A stretch of DNA of 64,000 nt from Synechococcus sp. M44_DOE_062 (GTDB lineage Bacteria > Cyanobacteriota > Cyanobacteriia > Thermostichales > Thermostichaceae): assembly GCA_015295985.1 (NCBI GenBank), contig DVDX01000039.1:1-64000 (forward strand), in the 5' to 3' direction. Below, in pieces: positions 27,933 through 46,387 of this stretch (within the stretch, counting starts at the first letter, position 1; every line of letters starts with the position of its first letter). Below the pieces are notes generated by a model, which was given only the letters and a program-made list of their open reading frames with translations, had not been told where the DNA came from and did not search any database. Both the position numbers and the translations under genes were made by a program.

Positions 27933-29747
27933 ATGCGTCCTTCGGGTCACCCCTTCGTGTCAGCGCTGCGTAGCCACAACAGCCCAGGCTTTTCTCCCCG
28001 CAGGGGATCCAGCTCCTTTGTCCAGTTTCGCCGCAATCCCCATCTGCTGCCCTTTGGGGGCCTTAGCCTGCTGATGATGGGCTTGGCGGCGCCCCTGTTT
28101 GTGCTCTCGGGGGCGGATCCCAGTTTGGCCGGCTGCGATGAGAGCTTTTATGCCCAGATGGCCCGCGAGCTGCTGCGGGGGGGGGATTGGCTGGGGCCCA
28201 CTTTTTTGGGAGAGCCTTTTTTCGAGAAACCCCCCCTGCTCACCTGGGGCGTAGCCCTCAGTTTTGCCCTGTACGGGGTGAACGAGTGGGCGGCGCGGCT
28301 ACCAGGGATCCTCGCTGCTCTGCTCTCCATTCCCCTGATGGGCTGGATTGGGCGACCTTTTTTGCCAATGCGGGCGGCCCTTTTGGGGATGGCGGTTCTG
28401 CCTTTGTGCTACCTGTGGGTGCAGCAGGGGCGGCTGGTGGGGCAGGATGTGCCCTTGACCTTTCTGGAGCTGCTGGGGATCCTGGGGCTGGTCAACGGCA
28501 TCCGCGGCTACAAGGTTTGGTTTTGGCTAACTGGGGTGGCCTTTGGGCTGGGCCTGCTGATGAAAAGTGCCATGATCCTGCTGCCGGGGGCGGCTTTGAT
28601 CCCCTACTTGGCGCAGCAGCGGCGACATTGGCTGGGATCGGCTCAATTCTGGCTGGCGCTTGGGCTGGGCTTGGGGATGTTTGGCCTCTGGCTGGGTCTG
28701 GCCATGCAGGTGTATGGCCCACAGGTGCTGACCACCCTGGTGGGGAAGGTGTGGGATCTGGGGCAAGAGCCCTTCCATGCTGACGCCACCGGCTGGTACT
28801 ACCTTTGGCACATTCCCGTTCATGGCTTCCCGTGGACGGTTTTGGCGCCGGTGGGAGGCTTTCTCCTGGTGCGCCAACAGCCGGGATCCACGCTGCTCAT
28901 CTGGTCTTTCCCCCTGCTGCTGTTGTTGTTGTTGCAGCTTTATCCCACCAAAACCCCCTACTACACCGTGCAGCTTTACCCCTGGCTGGCTCTCTTGGCC
29001 GGGGTAGCCTTGGATCAGTCGCGTCAGTGTTGCGGAGCAATAGCGTTAGCTATGCGGGGTCGCGTCTTCGCGTCAGCGTTGCGGAGCAATAGCGGTGCGG
29101 AGCACTTAAAGCCCCGTCTGGCTCAGGTGCTCTCTTGGGGCCTGGCAGCGGTGGGGCTGCTGCTGTTGGGTTTGGGGGTGGCCGTCCGGCTGGGCGTAGA
29201 GGGTCTGGAGCTTCTACAACCTCATGCTTGGCCGCTGGTGGCGATGGGTCTTTTGTACCTCTTGCTGCCAGGGATCTGGAGTTGGCGGCGGGTGTTGCGC
29301 TGTGCCGGCGAGCTGTGGGTGGGAACCCTCTTGTTGGCCGGGATCCTCGCCATGATCACCATCGTGTTGCGGCCTGATTTTGGCAATTTTAGCCCTGCTT
29401 TTGCCCAAATGGATTGGGATCAAATGCTGCCGCCCGTTCGCGGTAGCGGGACAGGGTCCTTGGCAGAGTCTGGGGAGACGGTGGTGGATATTGGCCGCAG
29501 CGGCTTGCCGGATGTCTGTCAGGCTCAGGCCATCGCTTTTTACACCCCCAATCCGGGGAGATGGGTGGATGATCAGGCTCTGGAACAAGGGGACTATGGA
29601 GACTACCTTTGGGTGTCTCCGGTGCAGGCAAAGCAGGTGGAGATCCGGGGTTTGGGGTTACAACCTCTGGCAGAGGTGGAGGGCTGGCAACTGGTGCGCC
29701 GCTTGGATCCCCTTAGGGACTCCGTCCCGCTAACGCGATCGGAGTAG
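27933..29747 (+). CDS. ArnT-like glycosyltransferase (PMT/GT83 superfamily membrane protein)
   Basis: A large polytopic membrane protein with about a dozen helices. The first lumenal loop contains DESFYAQMARELL and FLGEPFFEKPPLLTW, the acidic and EK-PPL signatures of dolichyl- or undecaprenyl-phosphate-sugar glycosyltransferases such as ArnT, which move a lipid-linked sugar onto lipid A or proteins. I use ATG 27933; ATG 28074 is an alternative. Three hairpin repeats are read in frame: near residues 362-387 (29020-29089), at VRGSGTGS (29439-29459) and at the very C-terminus DSVPLTRSE (29717-29737). The last implies that the native stop was displaced. The acceptor is unknown. Confidence 0.8.
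   Translation: MRPSGHPFVSALRSHNSPGFSPRRGSSSFVQFRRNPHLLPFGGLSLLMMGLAAPLFVLSGADPSLAGCDESFYAQMARELLRGGDWLGPTFLGEPFFEKPPLLTWGVALSFALYGVNEWAARLPGILAALLSIPLMGWIGRPFLPMRAALLGMAVLPLCYLWVQQGRLVGQDVPLTFLELLGILGLVNGIRGYKVWFWLTGVAFGLGLLMKSAMILLPGAALIPYLAQQRRHWLGSAQFWLALGLGLGMFGLWLGLAMQVYGPQVLTTLVGKVWDLGQEPFHADATGWYYLWHIPVHGFPWTVLAPVGGFLLVRQQPGSTLLIWSFPLLLLLLLQLYPTKTPYYTVQLYPWLALLAGVALDQSRQCCGAIALAMRGRVFASALRSNSGAEHLKPRLAQVLSWGLAAVGLLLLGLGVAVRLGVEGLELLQPHAWPLVAMGLLYLLLPGIWSWRRVLRCAGELWVGTLLLAGILAMITIVLRPDFGNFSPAFAQMDWDQMLPPVRGSGTGSLAESGETVVDIGRSGLPDVCQAQAIAFYTPNPGRWVDDQALEQGDYGDYLWVSPVQAKQVEIRGLGLQPLAEVEGWQLVRRLDPLRDSVPLTRSE
27956..27976 (+). repeat. Degenerate double-hairpin repeat near the glycosyltransferase start
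   Basis: CGT-GTCA-GCG is paired with a wobble; the second hairpin CTGC-GTA-GCCA is mispaired. Confidence 0.4.
29020..29040 (+). repeat. Double-hairpin repeat, TTGC/GCAA type
   Basis: CGC-GTCA-GTG (wobble) then TTGC-GGA-GCAA. Adjacent AGC-GTTA-GCT at 29042-29051 is a compensated hairpin-1 variant. Confidence 0.85.
29069..29089 (+). repeat. Double-hairpin repeat, TTGC/GCAA type
   Basis: CGC-GTCA-GCG then TTGC-GGA-GCAA, fully paired; in frame in the glycosyltransferase gene as ASALRSN. Confidence 0.9.
29439..29459 (+). repeat. Double-hairpin repeat, GGAC/GTCC type
   Basis: CGC-GGTA-GCG then GGAC-AGG-GTCC, fully paired; translated as RGSGTGS. Confidence 0.9.
29717..29737 (-). repeat. Double-hairpin repeat at the glycosyltransferase 3' end
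   Basis: Minus strand CGC-GTTA-GCG then GGAC-GGA-GTCC, fully paired; forms the C-terminal DSVPLTR. Confidence 0.9.
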
Positions 29748-36693: not shown

Positions 36694-36714
36694 GCGTTAG
36701 CGGGACGGAGTCCC
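36694..36714 (+). repeat. Double-hairpin repeat upstream of the RNA-binding protein gene
   Basis: CGC-GTTA-GCG then GGAC-GGA-GTCC, fully paired; about 120 bases upstream of the start codon. Confidence 0.9.
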
Positions 36715-41385: not shown

Positions 41386-42735
41386 CTACCCCACCGCATC
41401 GGCGGATGGGGTTTCCCCATCCACTTGACGACGAGATTTCTGTCTCTTCCTCTGCCCCAGTTGCTTCATCGATCCCGTTGTCGCTACGCGACGCTGCCGC
41501 GAATGCCGAGTCTTTGAAGTAGTGCTGAGACATCCAAGACTCACGAGGCTGGTTCTCAACCCCGGTTGCTGATGGGTCGCAACGTTGTACATCACCATCA
41601 CCGAGCCCCGATCCCTCAGTACCTCAAACCCACAAGCAGAGCAGACATGATAGCGGTTGTTCAACTCTGCCCAGTCCTTGTGTACCGCACCACACTTAGG
41701 ACAGCGCTGGCTCGGTTTGATGGTCTTGGTAGGAAGCACCAGCACTAAACCCCCCTTCTGCTCGATTTTGTAGGTAAGCATCTGGTTCAATGTACCAAAC
41801 CCCACCGACAAAATGGACTTGTTCAGCCCTGCTTTGCGCTTCCCGCCCTTGCGGGTCATCCCTTTGACATTCAACTTCTCAGTTACCCCGATGTCATAAC
41901 GACCAGCAATCTCTGAGGTAACTTTGTGTTGCCAGTCTTTGCGCTGACGGGCAACTTTCGCTTGGAGTCGGGATTCCCGCTGATGGATTTTACGCCAACG
42001 ACGAGAAGCTTTTACCCCCTTCTCCGGAGCACGCTTCCGTCGTTTTAACTTGGCAAGCTTGCGTATCTTCGCCTCACTCCGTTGGGTGAAGCGGGGATTG
42101 GCGATCTCCTGAAACTCCGCCCCATCAAACAAAGTCAGGGCGGTCTCCGTACCCAAATCATAAGCAACTATGGACTCGTATCTCAAATCTGATTGGGAAC
42201 CCAACTTAGGCTCTGGTATGGCTACGTCCACTGTGAATGAGGCAAACCACTGTCGCCTGGACGGCCTGTGGACGATAGTCAGCGTTGTTGGCACGCCCCA
42301 ATGCTTAGCTTGACCGCGCATTTTCAGCGTAATACCTAAGTCATTGAGTGTTACCGTGCCATACTTGCCCGTGCTGTTGACTTTCCACCCCGACTGCGCA
42401 GGATACGTCCAGCCTGAATATTTGCGAATGGACTTGAAGTGGGGCTTCTTGCTGAGGCCCTGAAAGAATCTTTGATAAGCACCATCCACCCGCTTGACCG
42501 TAGCTTGCAAGGACTGGGAGTGCAGTTGGGCATACTCCACCCACACCTGCTTGAACTCAGGGAGTAGGTTCTGCTGTTCAAAATAGGCAACTGTTCGGCG
42601 GTGTAGCTTGTACTCGGTTTCCCGGTGGCTAACACAAGCATTGTAGAGATAGCAATGTAAGCGACGAGCCGCCAACAAAGCCTTTTCTTGGACTTTGCTG
42701 GGATACAGTCGAAAGGTCTGCCTTCTGGTTGCCAT
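41386..42735 (-). CDS. tnpB: TnpB/OrfB-like RuvC protein with zinc ribbon
   Basis: Start ATG 42735 gives 449 residues; an upstream TTG/GTG frame is unsupported. Visible parts: helix-turn-helix-like N-terminus (FRLYPSKVQEKALLAARRLH), RuvC-I IVAYDLGTETALTLFDG (Asp), RuvC-II GVTEKLNVKGM (Glu), zinc ribbon CPKCG...CSACG, and RuvC-III LRDRGSVMVMYN. The last keeps one Asp but differs from the common DRDxNAAxN. This may be a subfamily trait and activity is uncertain. The final residues (DGETPSADAVG) overlap the element's terminal hairpin, so in this orientation the 3' end of the transcript could serve as its guide RNA, as known for TnpB. A hairpin repeat (41481-41501) lies in the C-terminal tail. 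Confidence 0.88.
   Translation of the reverse strand: MATRRQTFRLYPSKVQEKALLAARRLHCYLYNACVSHRETEYKLHRRTVAYFEQQNLLPEFKQVWVEYAQLHSQSLQATVKRVDGAYQRFFQGLSKKPHFKSIRKYSGWTYPAQSGWKVNSTGKYGTVTLNDLGITLKMRGQAKHWGVPTTLTIVHRPSRRQWFASFTVDVAIPEPKLGSQSDLRYESIVAYDLGTETALTLFDGAEFQEIANPRFTQRSEAKIRKLAKLKRRKRAPEKGVKASRRWRKIHQRESRLQAKVARQRKDWQHKVTSEIAGRYDIGVTEKLNVKGMTRKGGKRKAGLNKSILSVGFGTLNQMLTYKIEQKGGLVLVLPTKTIKPSQRCPKCGAVHKDWAELNNRYHVCSACGFEVLRDRGSVMVMYNVATHQQPGLRTSLVSLGCLSTTSKTRHSRQRRVATTGSMKQLGQRKRQKSRRQVDGETPSADAVG
41404..41422. repeat. Terminal hairpin on the tnpB 3' side
   Basis: GGATGGGG-TTT-CCCCATCC, eight perfect pairs, inside the last codons of tnpB. It probably forms the right end of the element and the 3' part of its omega (re) RNA. 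Confidence 0.75.
41481..41501 (-). repeat. Double-hairpin repeat, TCGC/GCGA type, in tnpB
   Basis: Minus strand CGC-GGCA-GCG then TCGC-GTA-GCGA, fully paired with a unique arm pair. It shows that IS genes are also targets. Confidence 0.85.
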
Positions 42736-42813
42736 TGCTTCGTTACTGGCTTTTTGTCCTGCAGTCAGCGGCAGGACTCTAATCACCGTACATCATAGCG
42801 GTGCTCTCCATCT

Positions 42814-44334: not shown

Positions 44335-45921
44335 ATGAGCAATCCTCTTGAGTTTCCCTGGCTGTCGGTGCTGGTGCTCTTGCCTCTGCTGGCAGCCTTC
44401 GGGATCCCCTTGATCCCCCAGAGCCCTTGGGTGCGTTGGTATGCCCTCGCTGTGGGGGCTTTTGATTTGGGCCTGATGGTCTATGTCTTTGCGCGGCACT
44501 ATGACCTGCAGGACTTTTCTCTGCAACTGGCGGAGCGCTACGCCTGGGTGCCCCAAATTGGGTTCCACTGGTCGCTGGCGGTGGACGGCCTGTCCTTTCC
44601 GCTGGTGTTGCTGTCGGGTTTAATCACGACCCTGTCGATTGTGGCGGCTTGGAATCTCTCTCATAAGCCGCGTTTGTTTTTCTTCTTGCTGCTGCTGATG
44701 TACGGTGCCCAGGTGGGCGTGTTTCTGGCGCAGGACATGCTCCTTTTCTTCCTGATGTGGGAGATCGAGCTGGTGCCGGTCTATCTGCTCATCTCCATTT
44801 GGGGGGGGCCGAAGCGCCAGTACGCCGCCACCAAGTTCATCCTCTACACGGCTGCCGCCTCTATTTTTATCCTGGTGGGATCCCTGGCGATGGCCTTCTA
44901 CGGCGAGGGCTTTAGCCTGGAGATGGCAGAGCTGAGCGCTAAGTCTTACCCGGTGGCCTTGGAGCTGTTGGTGTATGCGGCTTTGCTGATCGCCTTTGGG
45001 GTGAAGCTGCCGATTTTCCCGCTGCACACCTGGCTGCCGGATGCCCACAGCGAAGCCTCTGCTCCCATTTCCATGATCTTGGCGGGGGTTCTGCTCAAGA
45101 TGGGGGGCTATGGCCTGATCCGCATGAATGTGGGTATGTTGTCGGAAGCCCACGTGTACTTCGCCCCGGTGCTGGCGGTGTTGGGTGTGGTGAACATCAT
45201 CTACGGGGCGTTGGCTGCCTTTGGTCAGAACCATCTCAAGCGGCGCTTGGCCTATTCATCCATTGCCCACATGGGCTTTGTGTTGATCGGGATCTCCGCC
45301 TTCACAGAGCTGGGCATCAATGGGGCAGTGCTGCAAATGATCTCCCACGGTCTGATTGCTGCAGTTTTGTTCTTCCTGACGGGGATCACCTACGAGCGCA
45401 CCCACACCCTTGCCCTCGACAAGCTGGGTGGGTTGGCCAAGCAGATGCCGAAGGTTTTTGCCCTGTTTACGGCGGGATCCCTGGCTTCTTTGGCCCTGCC
45501 GGGAATGAGTGGATTTGTGGGTGAGCTGACGGTGTTCTTGGGCTTGACCACTAGCGATGCCTATGCACCGACCTTCAAAGCAGGAATTGCCCTGCTGGCG
45601 GCAGTGGGTATCATTTTGACGCCCATTTACTTGCTCTCCATGCTGCGGCAGGTGTTCTATGGGGCTCAGGATCCTGGCTTGGTTTTGGAAGACTCCCTGG
45701 GGGATATGCGCCCGCGGGAAATGGCAGTGGCCCTCTGTCTGCTGTTGCCGATTCTCGGCATTGGCTTCTACCCGCGCCTGGCTACCCAAACCTACGATGT
45801 CAGGACGGTGGCGGTAGCTGCCCAGTTGCGCAGTGTGTTGGCAACTGAAATTGTGCAGCGACCTTTCTTCCCCTCGCCAGTGCAATCGGCCCAGGTGGCG
45901 GCTCTGCCCCTGGAAGATTGA
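44335..45921 (+). CDS. ndhD: NAD(P)H-quinone oxidoreductase chain 4 (NDH-1 subunit NdhD)
   Basis: Proton-pumping antiporter-like membrane subunit of cyanobacterial NDH-1, used in respiration, cyclic electron flow and, with NdhF paralogues, CO2 uptake. About 14 membrane helices are visible. Conserved charged positions lie in [39 protein letters not shown] and [19 protein letters not shown]. At 528 residues it is normal for the NdhD1/D2 type; I cannot tell which paralogue from this alone. ATG 44335 is the family start. A miniature IS605-like element lies 60 bases downstream. Confidence 0.96.
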
Positions 45922-45989
45922 AAGGGGGGGGTCAGACGCAGTTCCTTTTTTTCTCTATTCCTTCTCTGTCCAGAAGAGCTGTTGACACT

Positions 45990-46009
45990 CCCACGACTCA
46001 AGTCGTGGG
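45990..46009. repeat. Left hairpin of the miniature element
   Basis: CCCACGAC-TCAA-GTCGTGGG, eight pairs. Confidence 0.85.
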
Positions 46010-46016
46010 ATTCTAA

Positions 46017-46037
46017 GGCCTACGGCCCGCTGCCGCG
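46017..46037 (-). repeat. Double-hairpin repeat, GGCC/GGCC type, inside the miniature element
   Basis: Minus strand CGC-GGCA-GCG then GGCC-GTA-GGCC, fully paired. Confidence 0.85.
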
Positions 46038-46217
46038 AAACGCAGTCCACAAAGAGACCCATAAAGGCGTTGTCAAGACGCCTCTACACAGTTCCTTGGG
46101 GTTTTGCCCCAAAGTTCTGCTTACTTGCTTGTAAGTCGCCGATTGGGTTTTTCACCAAGGATGGCGATTAGGTATAGTCTAGCCTAGAGCGACTCAAGTT
46201 GCTTGTGGGCTTTTCCT

Positions 46218-46237
46218 CCCCGTACTGAAGTACGGGG
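46218..46237. repeat. Right hairpin of the miniature element
   Basis: CCCCGTAC-TGAA-GTACGGGG, eight pairs. Confidence 0.85.
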
Positions 46238-46387
46238 CTACCAAGCTATCCGAATGTGTTTGGGGAGTGGCCCGACTCAACGTTCAGCTCTTCTTTTGTT
46301 TTTTTTAAGTTTTAAGATTGGATTTCGGATCCGGAATGGGTCTGTACTGGGATTTTCTTGTGGCCGATTGTTCTTGCGCTGTCTATC

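Follow-up and report, generated by a model that had tools for sequence, protein, structure and literature searches.

Downstream of an NdhD-like gene (Proton_antipo_M, 44335-45921) of Synechococcus sp. M44_DOE_062, about 260 bases carry a hairpin at either side, and the question raised by this locus is what kind of element they form and what it may still do. The window analysed here is the whole stretch of 64,000 nucleotides. The initial annotation had proposed, next to ndhD, a gene-less element with IS605-type hairpins at its bounds, which agrees with the further copies, with the IS605 of a related genome carrying the same kind of ends, and with the empty sites described below. The element is very probably a PATE, that is, a palindrome-associated non-autonomous IS200/IS605 MITE. 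In the following, W is the copy in the window, G000 is the genome of the window itself, and G001 and G004 are related genomes.

The two expected eight-pair hairpins with 4-nt loops, TCAA and TGAA, were both present (Table 1), giving the element near-terminal palindromes like those of IS605. Perfect hairpins of this form (8+4) occurred five times in the window, against a mean of 1.5 in dinucleotide shuffles, and a pair within 300 nt arose in 2 of 200 such shuffles. Since the element is read on the minus strand, the hairpin on the left in the window is that of its right end (tnpB 3' side). The bounds first given, 45981-46245, made the element about 10 bases too short: the copy alignment and the empty sites placed the left end at 46255 (ATTCGGATAG) and the right end at 45982 (GAGTGTCAA), both on the minus strand. 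Coding potential was absent as claimed, the longest ORF entirely within the element being 50 aa, while ORFs of 64 and 69 aa merely overlapped its edges. Like other PATEs, it is too short to encode a transposase.

Table 1. Features of the element and of its flanks in the window
Feature	Position	Strand	Basis
Whole non-autonomous IS605-type element (PATE/MITE), 274 nt	45982..46255	-	ends common to five copies; empty site in G004
Left-end hairpin, 8 bp, 4-nt loop, CCCCGTAC-TGAA-GTACGGGG	46218..46237	-	sequence; helix 1 of covariation model
Second left-end hairpin, AGCAACTTGAGTCGCT on minus strand, one mismatch in W	46188..46203	-	helix 2 of covariation model
Right-end hairpin, 8 bp, loop TTGA on minus (TCAA on plus), CCCACGAC-TCAA-GTCGTGGG	45990..46009	-	sequence
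Target/left cleavage tetranucleotide ACAC (GTGT on plus), outside element; predicted TnpB TAM	46256..46259	-	flank of 22/28 left ends
Left guide GTAG (G_L), directly 5' of left hairpin	46238..46241	-	sequence; fits ACAC by IS608 rule
Right guide GAAT (G_R), directly 5' of right hairpin	46010..46013	-	sequence; identical to IS608 G_R
Right cleavage site TCAA, last four element bases	45982..45985	-	identical in 14 tabulated copies
Right-end region with omegaRNA-like core, 145 nt including 24-nt unit	45982..46126	-	homology to G001 IS605; covariation
Hairpin around GGTGAAAAACCC, kept tnpB piece (GEKP codons), 5' part of proposed omegaRNA	46143..46158	-	tnpB motif of L121; helix 3
Predicted guide, the 20 nt that adjoin the right end on its 3' side (CAGCTCTTCTGGACAGAGAA)	45962..45981	-	inferred from TnpB reRNA architecture
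Nested 24-nt double-hairpin repeat AAGGCCTACGGCCCGCTGCCGCGA	46015..46038	+	missing as exactly 24 nt in L002-L004 and aligned G001 copies
5' arm of ndhD terminator-like hairpin, interrupted in loop by element	45972..45981	+	stem-loop and T tract in G004 empty site
3' arm and T tract of ndhD terminator-like hairpin	46285..46306 (arm 46285-46294)	+	sequence; G004 comparison

If the element is mobile, other copies with shared ends should exist. The G000 assembly, of 2.93 Mb in 90 contigs, contained 30 matches, many of the short ones being a 24-nt unit alone. Four further full-length copies (L002-L005, 246-280 nt) were identified, together with half of a copy (L006) and fragments that in several cases lie at contig ends (C81, C37, C2, C31, C82). 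At the C82 contig end (L119 993-1128), the core of one element had received, at a TACAC, a second element that runs in the opposite direction. Multiple copies also occurred at different places in the related genomes, as is typical of PATEs.

Empty sites were sought by comparing the joined flanks of the copies with the related genomes, and were found for four of the five copies (W, L003, L004 and L005). Gap-free alignments across the junction were obtained for W against G004, L003 and L004 against both G004 and G001, and L005 against G004; W was compared with G004 alone, and for L002 and L005 the alignment with G001 stopped short of the junction. The empty site of L004 had a 3-nt gap about 10 bases off the junction, and that of L005 was ungapped but without ACAC. 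For L002 no clean empty site was obtained, as its alignment with G004 showed a 12-nt gap about 9 bases off the junction. Judged by the gap-free junctions, four of the five elements seem to have inserted precisely and without duplicating the target, as expected of PATEs.

The left-end pattern used to collect ends contained no ACAC, and gave 28 distinct left ends in the fetched sequences (7 from G000, 20 from G001, 1 from G004). ACAC stood at the edge in 22 of them. The six that did not fit were L159 and L168 (ATAC), L044/L130 (ACAA), L171 (ACCC), L170, in which ACAC was shifted by one base, and L165, whose left end was decayed. L002 and L169 were missed by the pattern, yet both were flanked by ACAC. 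In IS608 the cleavage sites and guides are TCAA (C_R) with GAAT (G_R) and TTAC (C_L) with AAAG (G_L), and the pairs A+16:T-3 and A+17:T-4 are formed (PMC5934647). By this rule GTAG would fit ACAC through G:C-3, T:A-4 and G:C-1, if +16 is taken as the first G_L base and the pair of the fourth base with -1 is allowed as an extension of the rule. Insertion 3' of a short motif matching a hairpin-side guide, with predicted pairing, is the mode of IS200/IS605 elements. The element is like IS608 in its TCAA/GAAT right end and in inserting 3' of a short motif (PMC5934647), and unlike IS608 and ISDra2 in its target ACAC with guide GTAG and in lacking genes (PMC5934647, PMC8612924). With ACAC/GTAG, the element seems to use a naturally varied form of the IS608 pairing code.

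A full IS with ends of this kind, which had been anticipated, was found in the relative G001 and not in the assembly of the window's own genome. Locus L121 of G001 is this IS605, with an ACAC flank and with open tnpA and divergent tnpB frames, given here as open frames with start codons left unset. The tnpA frame of 136 codons encodes a Y1 transposase (PF01797, Y1_Tnp, 3.9e-33), and the tnpB frame matched PF01385 (OrfB_IS605, 1.2e-18), with PF07282 at 24.3 bits, below the cut-off of 26.3. Searches of the G000 assembly with L121 DNA and TnpB revealed no intact tnpA or tnpB of this family, with tnpB fragments left. The best TnpB match in G000 was a piece at the C81 contig end (L111 1222-1531) with reading frame changes, in which the 24-nt unit adjoined the tnpB 3' end, replacing the guide-RNA core. 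A family search gave four Y1 matches in G000, three of them with an internal stop.

The window also holds a tnpB-like gene (41386-42786, minus strand; OrfB_IS605, Cas12f1-like), of which a frame-changed copy, L024, was 82%/73% similar. It was considered as a helper and rejected: it was not among the 10 matches to L121 tnpB, and was therefore taken as another subfamily. In G001 an IS607-type serine-recombinase-like ORF (L125 125-772) was seen by eye near a copy of the PATE family. A scan of named genomes with the left-end pattern returned one match (Lewinella), where a pattern of such length is expected to give several chance matches in a collection so large; close relatives may lie outside that collection.

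The right part of the element matched the tnpB 3' end and the right end of L121. A 12-nt tnpB piece (GGTGAAAAACCC) was kept further inside, with the intervening codons lost. The reRNA of ISDra2 TnpB, about 150 nt long, derives from the 3' end of tnpB together with the right end, and about 16 nt of flanking sequence serve as its guide (PMC8612924). In the element, tnpB 3' end, right end and flank follow one another in the same layout. Stems of the omegaRNA-like core lie within 46088-46120, 46094-46114 and 46065-46083, and the region is about 120 nt long if the 24-nt unit is not counted. A search of Rfam with 45900-46350 (E up to 1) returned no family.

Covariation was assessed on an alignment of 16 gene-less copies from two species, 5 of G000 and 11 of G001; some others of G001, among them L165, L169 and L170, were excluded because the automatic search did not locate both of their ends. 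For stem H3 a first register was unpaired in most copies and was rejected, and the register predicted by RNAalifold was adopted. The resulting structure of 49 pairs, drawn from W and RNAalifold and so leaning towards both, was paired in 94.1% of 758 cells, against 31-49% in slid controls. Pairs changed on both sides numbered 12 against a shuffle mean of 7.4 (0/500), in a control of the kind that related sequences inflate; eight of the 12 fell in four internal helices and four in the left and right end hairpins. The 'further pair types' measure, one of five, was not above control (29 against 27.4, 75/500). For 23 right ends, RNAalifold gave z = -3.0 against 100 column shuffles, of which at least one scored lower. 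Between the 5 copies of G000 and the 11 of G001, mean identity reached 80% for the left end and 77% for the core, with 69% for the tnpB-derived hairpin and 65% for the right end; the two spacers were 15% and 11% identical. Several G001 copies had a shortened right hairpin. Recognition of the ends by TnpA alone should not require a conserved core. A predicted structured RNA with covariation covers the tnpB 3' end and the right end up to the transposon edge, as in omegaRNA/reRNA.

On these sequence comparisons, the retained right-end RNA could still work as an omegaRNA with the flanking DNA as its guide, a tentative reading with nearly as much for it as against. With similar reserve, it is proposed that PATEs may parasitise TnpB besides TnpA, the complete omegaRNA being kept by selection and TnpB in trans cutting the emptied ACAC. 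The main rival to guide-RNA retention is inheritance from separate recent parents, in which case the right-end region would be a mere remnant of the tnpB 3' end without RNA function, and the pairing would reflect constraint on the parent. This is a possibility of some weight, though we rather doubt it. The parent tnpB reads through the right-end region, so its conservation could be inherited; moreover, the G000 assembly yielded no intact tnpB of the family, and both kinship within the alignment, which inflates the shuffle control, and the one covariation measure of five without significance weaken the case for selection. Against it, the stems are near-fully paired with differing sequences across gene-less lineages, the spacers on both sides are wholly different, and in stem H1 the 15 gene-less right ends had 114 of 120 cells paired and the 8 tnpB-type ends 54 of 64, the latter being a set to which L050 and L127 were assigned by hand and in which the open-gene member L033/L121 was fully paired.

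Inside the right-end region lies the 24-nt unit, in agreement with the claim that a GGCC double-hairpin repeat is nested in the element, since exactly 24 nt were missing from the sister copies L002-L004. W, L005 and L006 carry the unit; L002-L004 and the 11 aligned G001 copies lack it. In G001, copy L168 carried a related 24-nt unit at another place while its sister L171 was uninterrupted, so that exact insertion with an uninterrupted sister site was seen in two cases, in the manner of SDR elements. The latter were reportedly described in cyanobacteria by Elhai et al. in 2008 as tiny dispersed structured repeats of 21-27 nt, found inside minitransposons. The 24-nt unit fits this description, being tiny, dispersed, structured and within minitransposons; it differs from SDR elements in occurring also in frame and in tandem inside a tnpB of G004. 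There the unit follows right after the NNAD codons, in tandem twice (L037) or 14 times (L040 1480-1820), and codes RGSGPEAF.

Counted with up to 3 mismatches, the unit had 127 matches in G000, 36 in G001 and 152 in G004, 8, 26 and 29 in three other members of the genus, and none in two genomes of other genera; the reversed pattern gave 0, save one in G004. Within the window, the wider 24-nt double-hairpin family is represented nine times, in seven cases by the GGACTCCGTCC type, at 29717 and 46017 on the plus strand and at 36713, 36034, 32815, 31937, 26065, 26041 and 11329 on the minus strand, where 26041/26065 form a tandem.

It is improbable that the unit was ancestral and was deleted from L002-L004 instead of being inserted. 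The right ends that could be read in tnpB-linked or partial copies of G000 (C81, L006) do carry it and C37 and C2 end inside it, with the copy at the C82 end as the exception without the unit. Yet none of the 11 aligned G001 copies has it at this place, the related unit interrupts L168 elsewhere with L171 uninterrupted, and the unit is dispersed in G000 (127 matches against 0 for the reversed control). Insertion of the unit into the element is the preferred order of events.

The end hairpins lie downstream of ndhD and could be thought of as terminators of flanking genes, with the element as ordinary intergenic DNA between them. A terminator scan gave 3 terminator-like sites where 2.0 were expected, and two of these lie in the element core, neither being an end hairpin. 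This reading is scarcely credible: no T run follows either end hairpin and both were absent from the sites of the scan, copies are present at other loci, the precise insertion relative to the G004 empty site already contradicts it, and a separate ndhD terminator-like hairpin flanks the element. In G004 the empty site is an uninterrupted terminator-like hairpin downstream of ndhD, with arms AGAAGAGCTG and CAGCTCTTCT and a T tract behind them; in the window these arms are now 303 nt apart, since the element sits in the hairpin loop. Terminator-like loops as a general insertion target were considered and rejected, as by eye W alone fits among 14 folded copies. A MITE derived from a different class of transposon, one that has terminal inverted repeats and duplicates its target, is practically dismissed, since the hairpins at both ends resemble inverted repeats but the extreme ends ATTCGGATAG and GAGTGTCAA are not mutual inverted repeats, no target was duplicated, insertion occurred 3' of a preferred tetranucleotide, and there is homology to an IS605 with Y1 TnpA.

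For a PATE, comparable systems exist. Nelson et al. in 2012 are said to have described ISSoc2-derived MITEs in thermophilic Synechococcus, maybe of the same or a close species. The likeness is one of description, as MITEs of maybe close species, and the ISSoc2 origin is theirs. ISSoc2-derived MITEs of thermophilic Synechococcus are also mentioned in another report (PMC10969869).

PATEs have been described as transposon ends without genes (PMC3119063, PMC7290912). Those of Haloquadratum walsbyi have IS605-like near-terminal palindromes with neither inverted terminal repeats nor target duplication, are too short for a transposase, arise in some cases by core deletion, and are often invaded by small mobile repeats of ~80-110 nt (PMC3119063). 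The present element shares the palindromes, the absence of target duplication and the invasion by small repeats, and differs in its bacterial host and in the 24-nt length of the invader; its covarying guide-RNA core has no counterpart in the discussion of H. walsbyi PATEs, as far as the available text of that study goes (PMC3119063). In Halanaerobium hydrogeniformans, a PATE-like sequence of 271 nt, in one copy only, keeps the left-end hairpin, the final 58 nt of tnpB and the entire right end, and inserts, some with hairpins, occur in the right end and tnpB (PMC7290912). The left-end hairpin, tnpB tail and right end are likewise kept here, with inserts; in contrast to that single copy, for which the accessible part of the report describes no empty site or guide role (PMC7290912), several copies and empty sites were found. 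Gene-less elements with TnpB guides were not recognised among the papers listed by literature searches, nor among those listed for small repeats and Synechococcus elements, both covering mostly papers outside subscription.

The copies, ends, empty sites, target preference, kinship with the IS605 of the sister species and nested 24-nt insertion were demonstrated at the level of sequence. In the mechanism proposed, an IS605 (left end, tnpA, tnpB, right end) would have lost its genes by internal deletion to become the PATE, which a Y1 (HUH) TnpA may move in trans. By the chemistry of IS608, cleavage of a single strand would follow ACAC on the left and TCAA on the right, these sites being recognised through pairing with the hairpin-side GTAG and GAAT. 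The circle would then insert 3' of another ACAC without target duplication, and in W the target would have been the loop of the ndhD terminator-like hairpin. TnpB supplied in trans, guided by the RNA of the element and its flank, may cut the empty ACAC site, by which the element would be restored.

As a PATE, the element is of an ordinary and well supported kind of mobile element, and the covarying guide-RNA core in gene-less copies is the less ordinary part. The 24-nt repeat inserts exactly into this guide-RNA part and, in a relative, is found in frame within the protein-coding part of such transposons. If TnpB is indeed parasitised, each copy would print a guide from its own flank, and a single nuclease would be served by many scattered 'guide-only' transposons. 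Should a working guide RNA persist in gene-less copies, IS605 families would depend for their spread on trans-acting guides besides transposase, a dependence that could be tested in a simple system.
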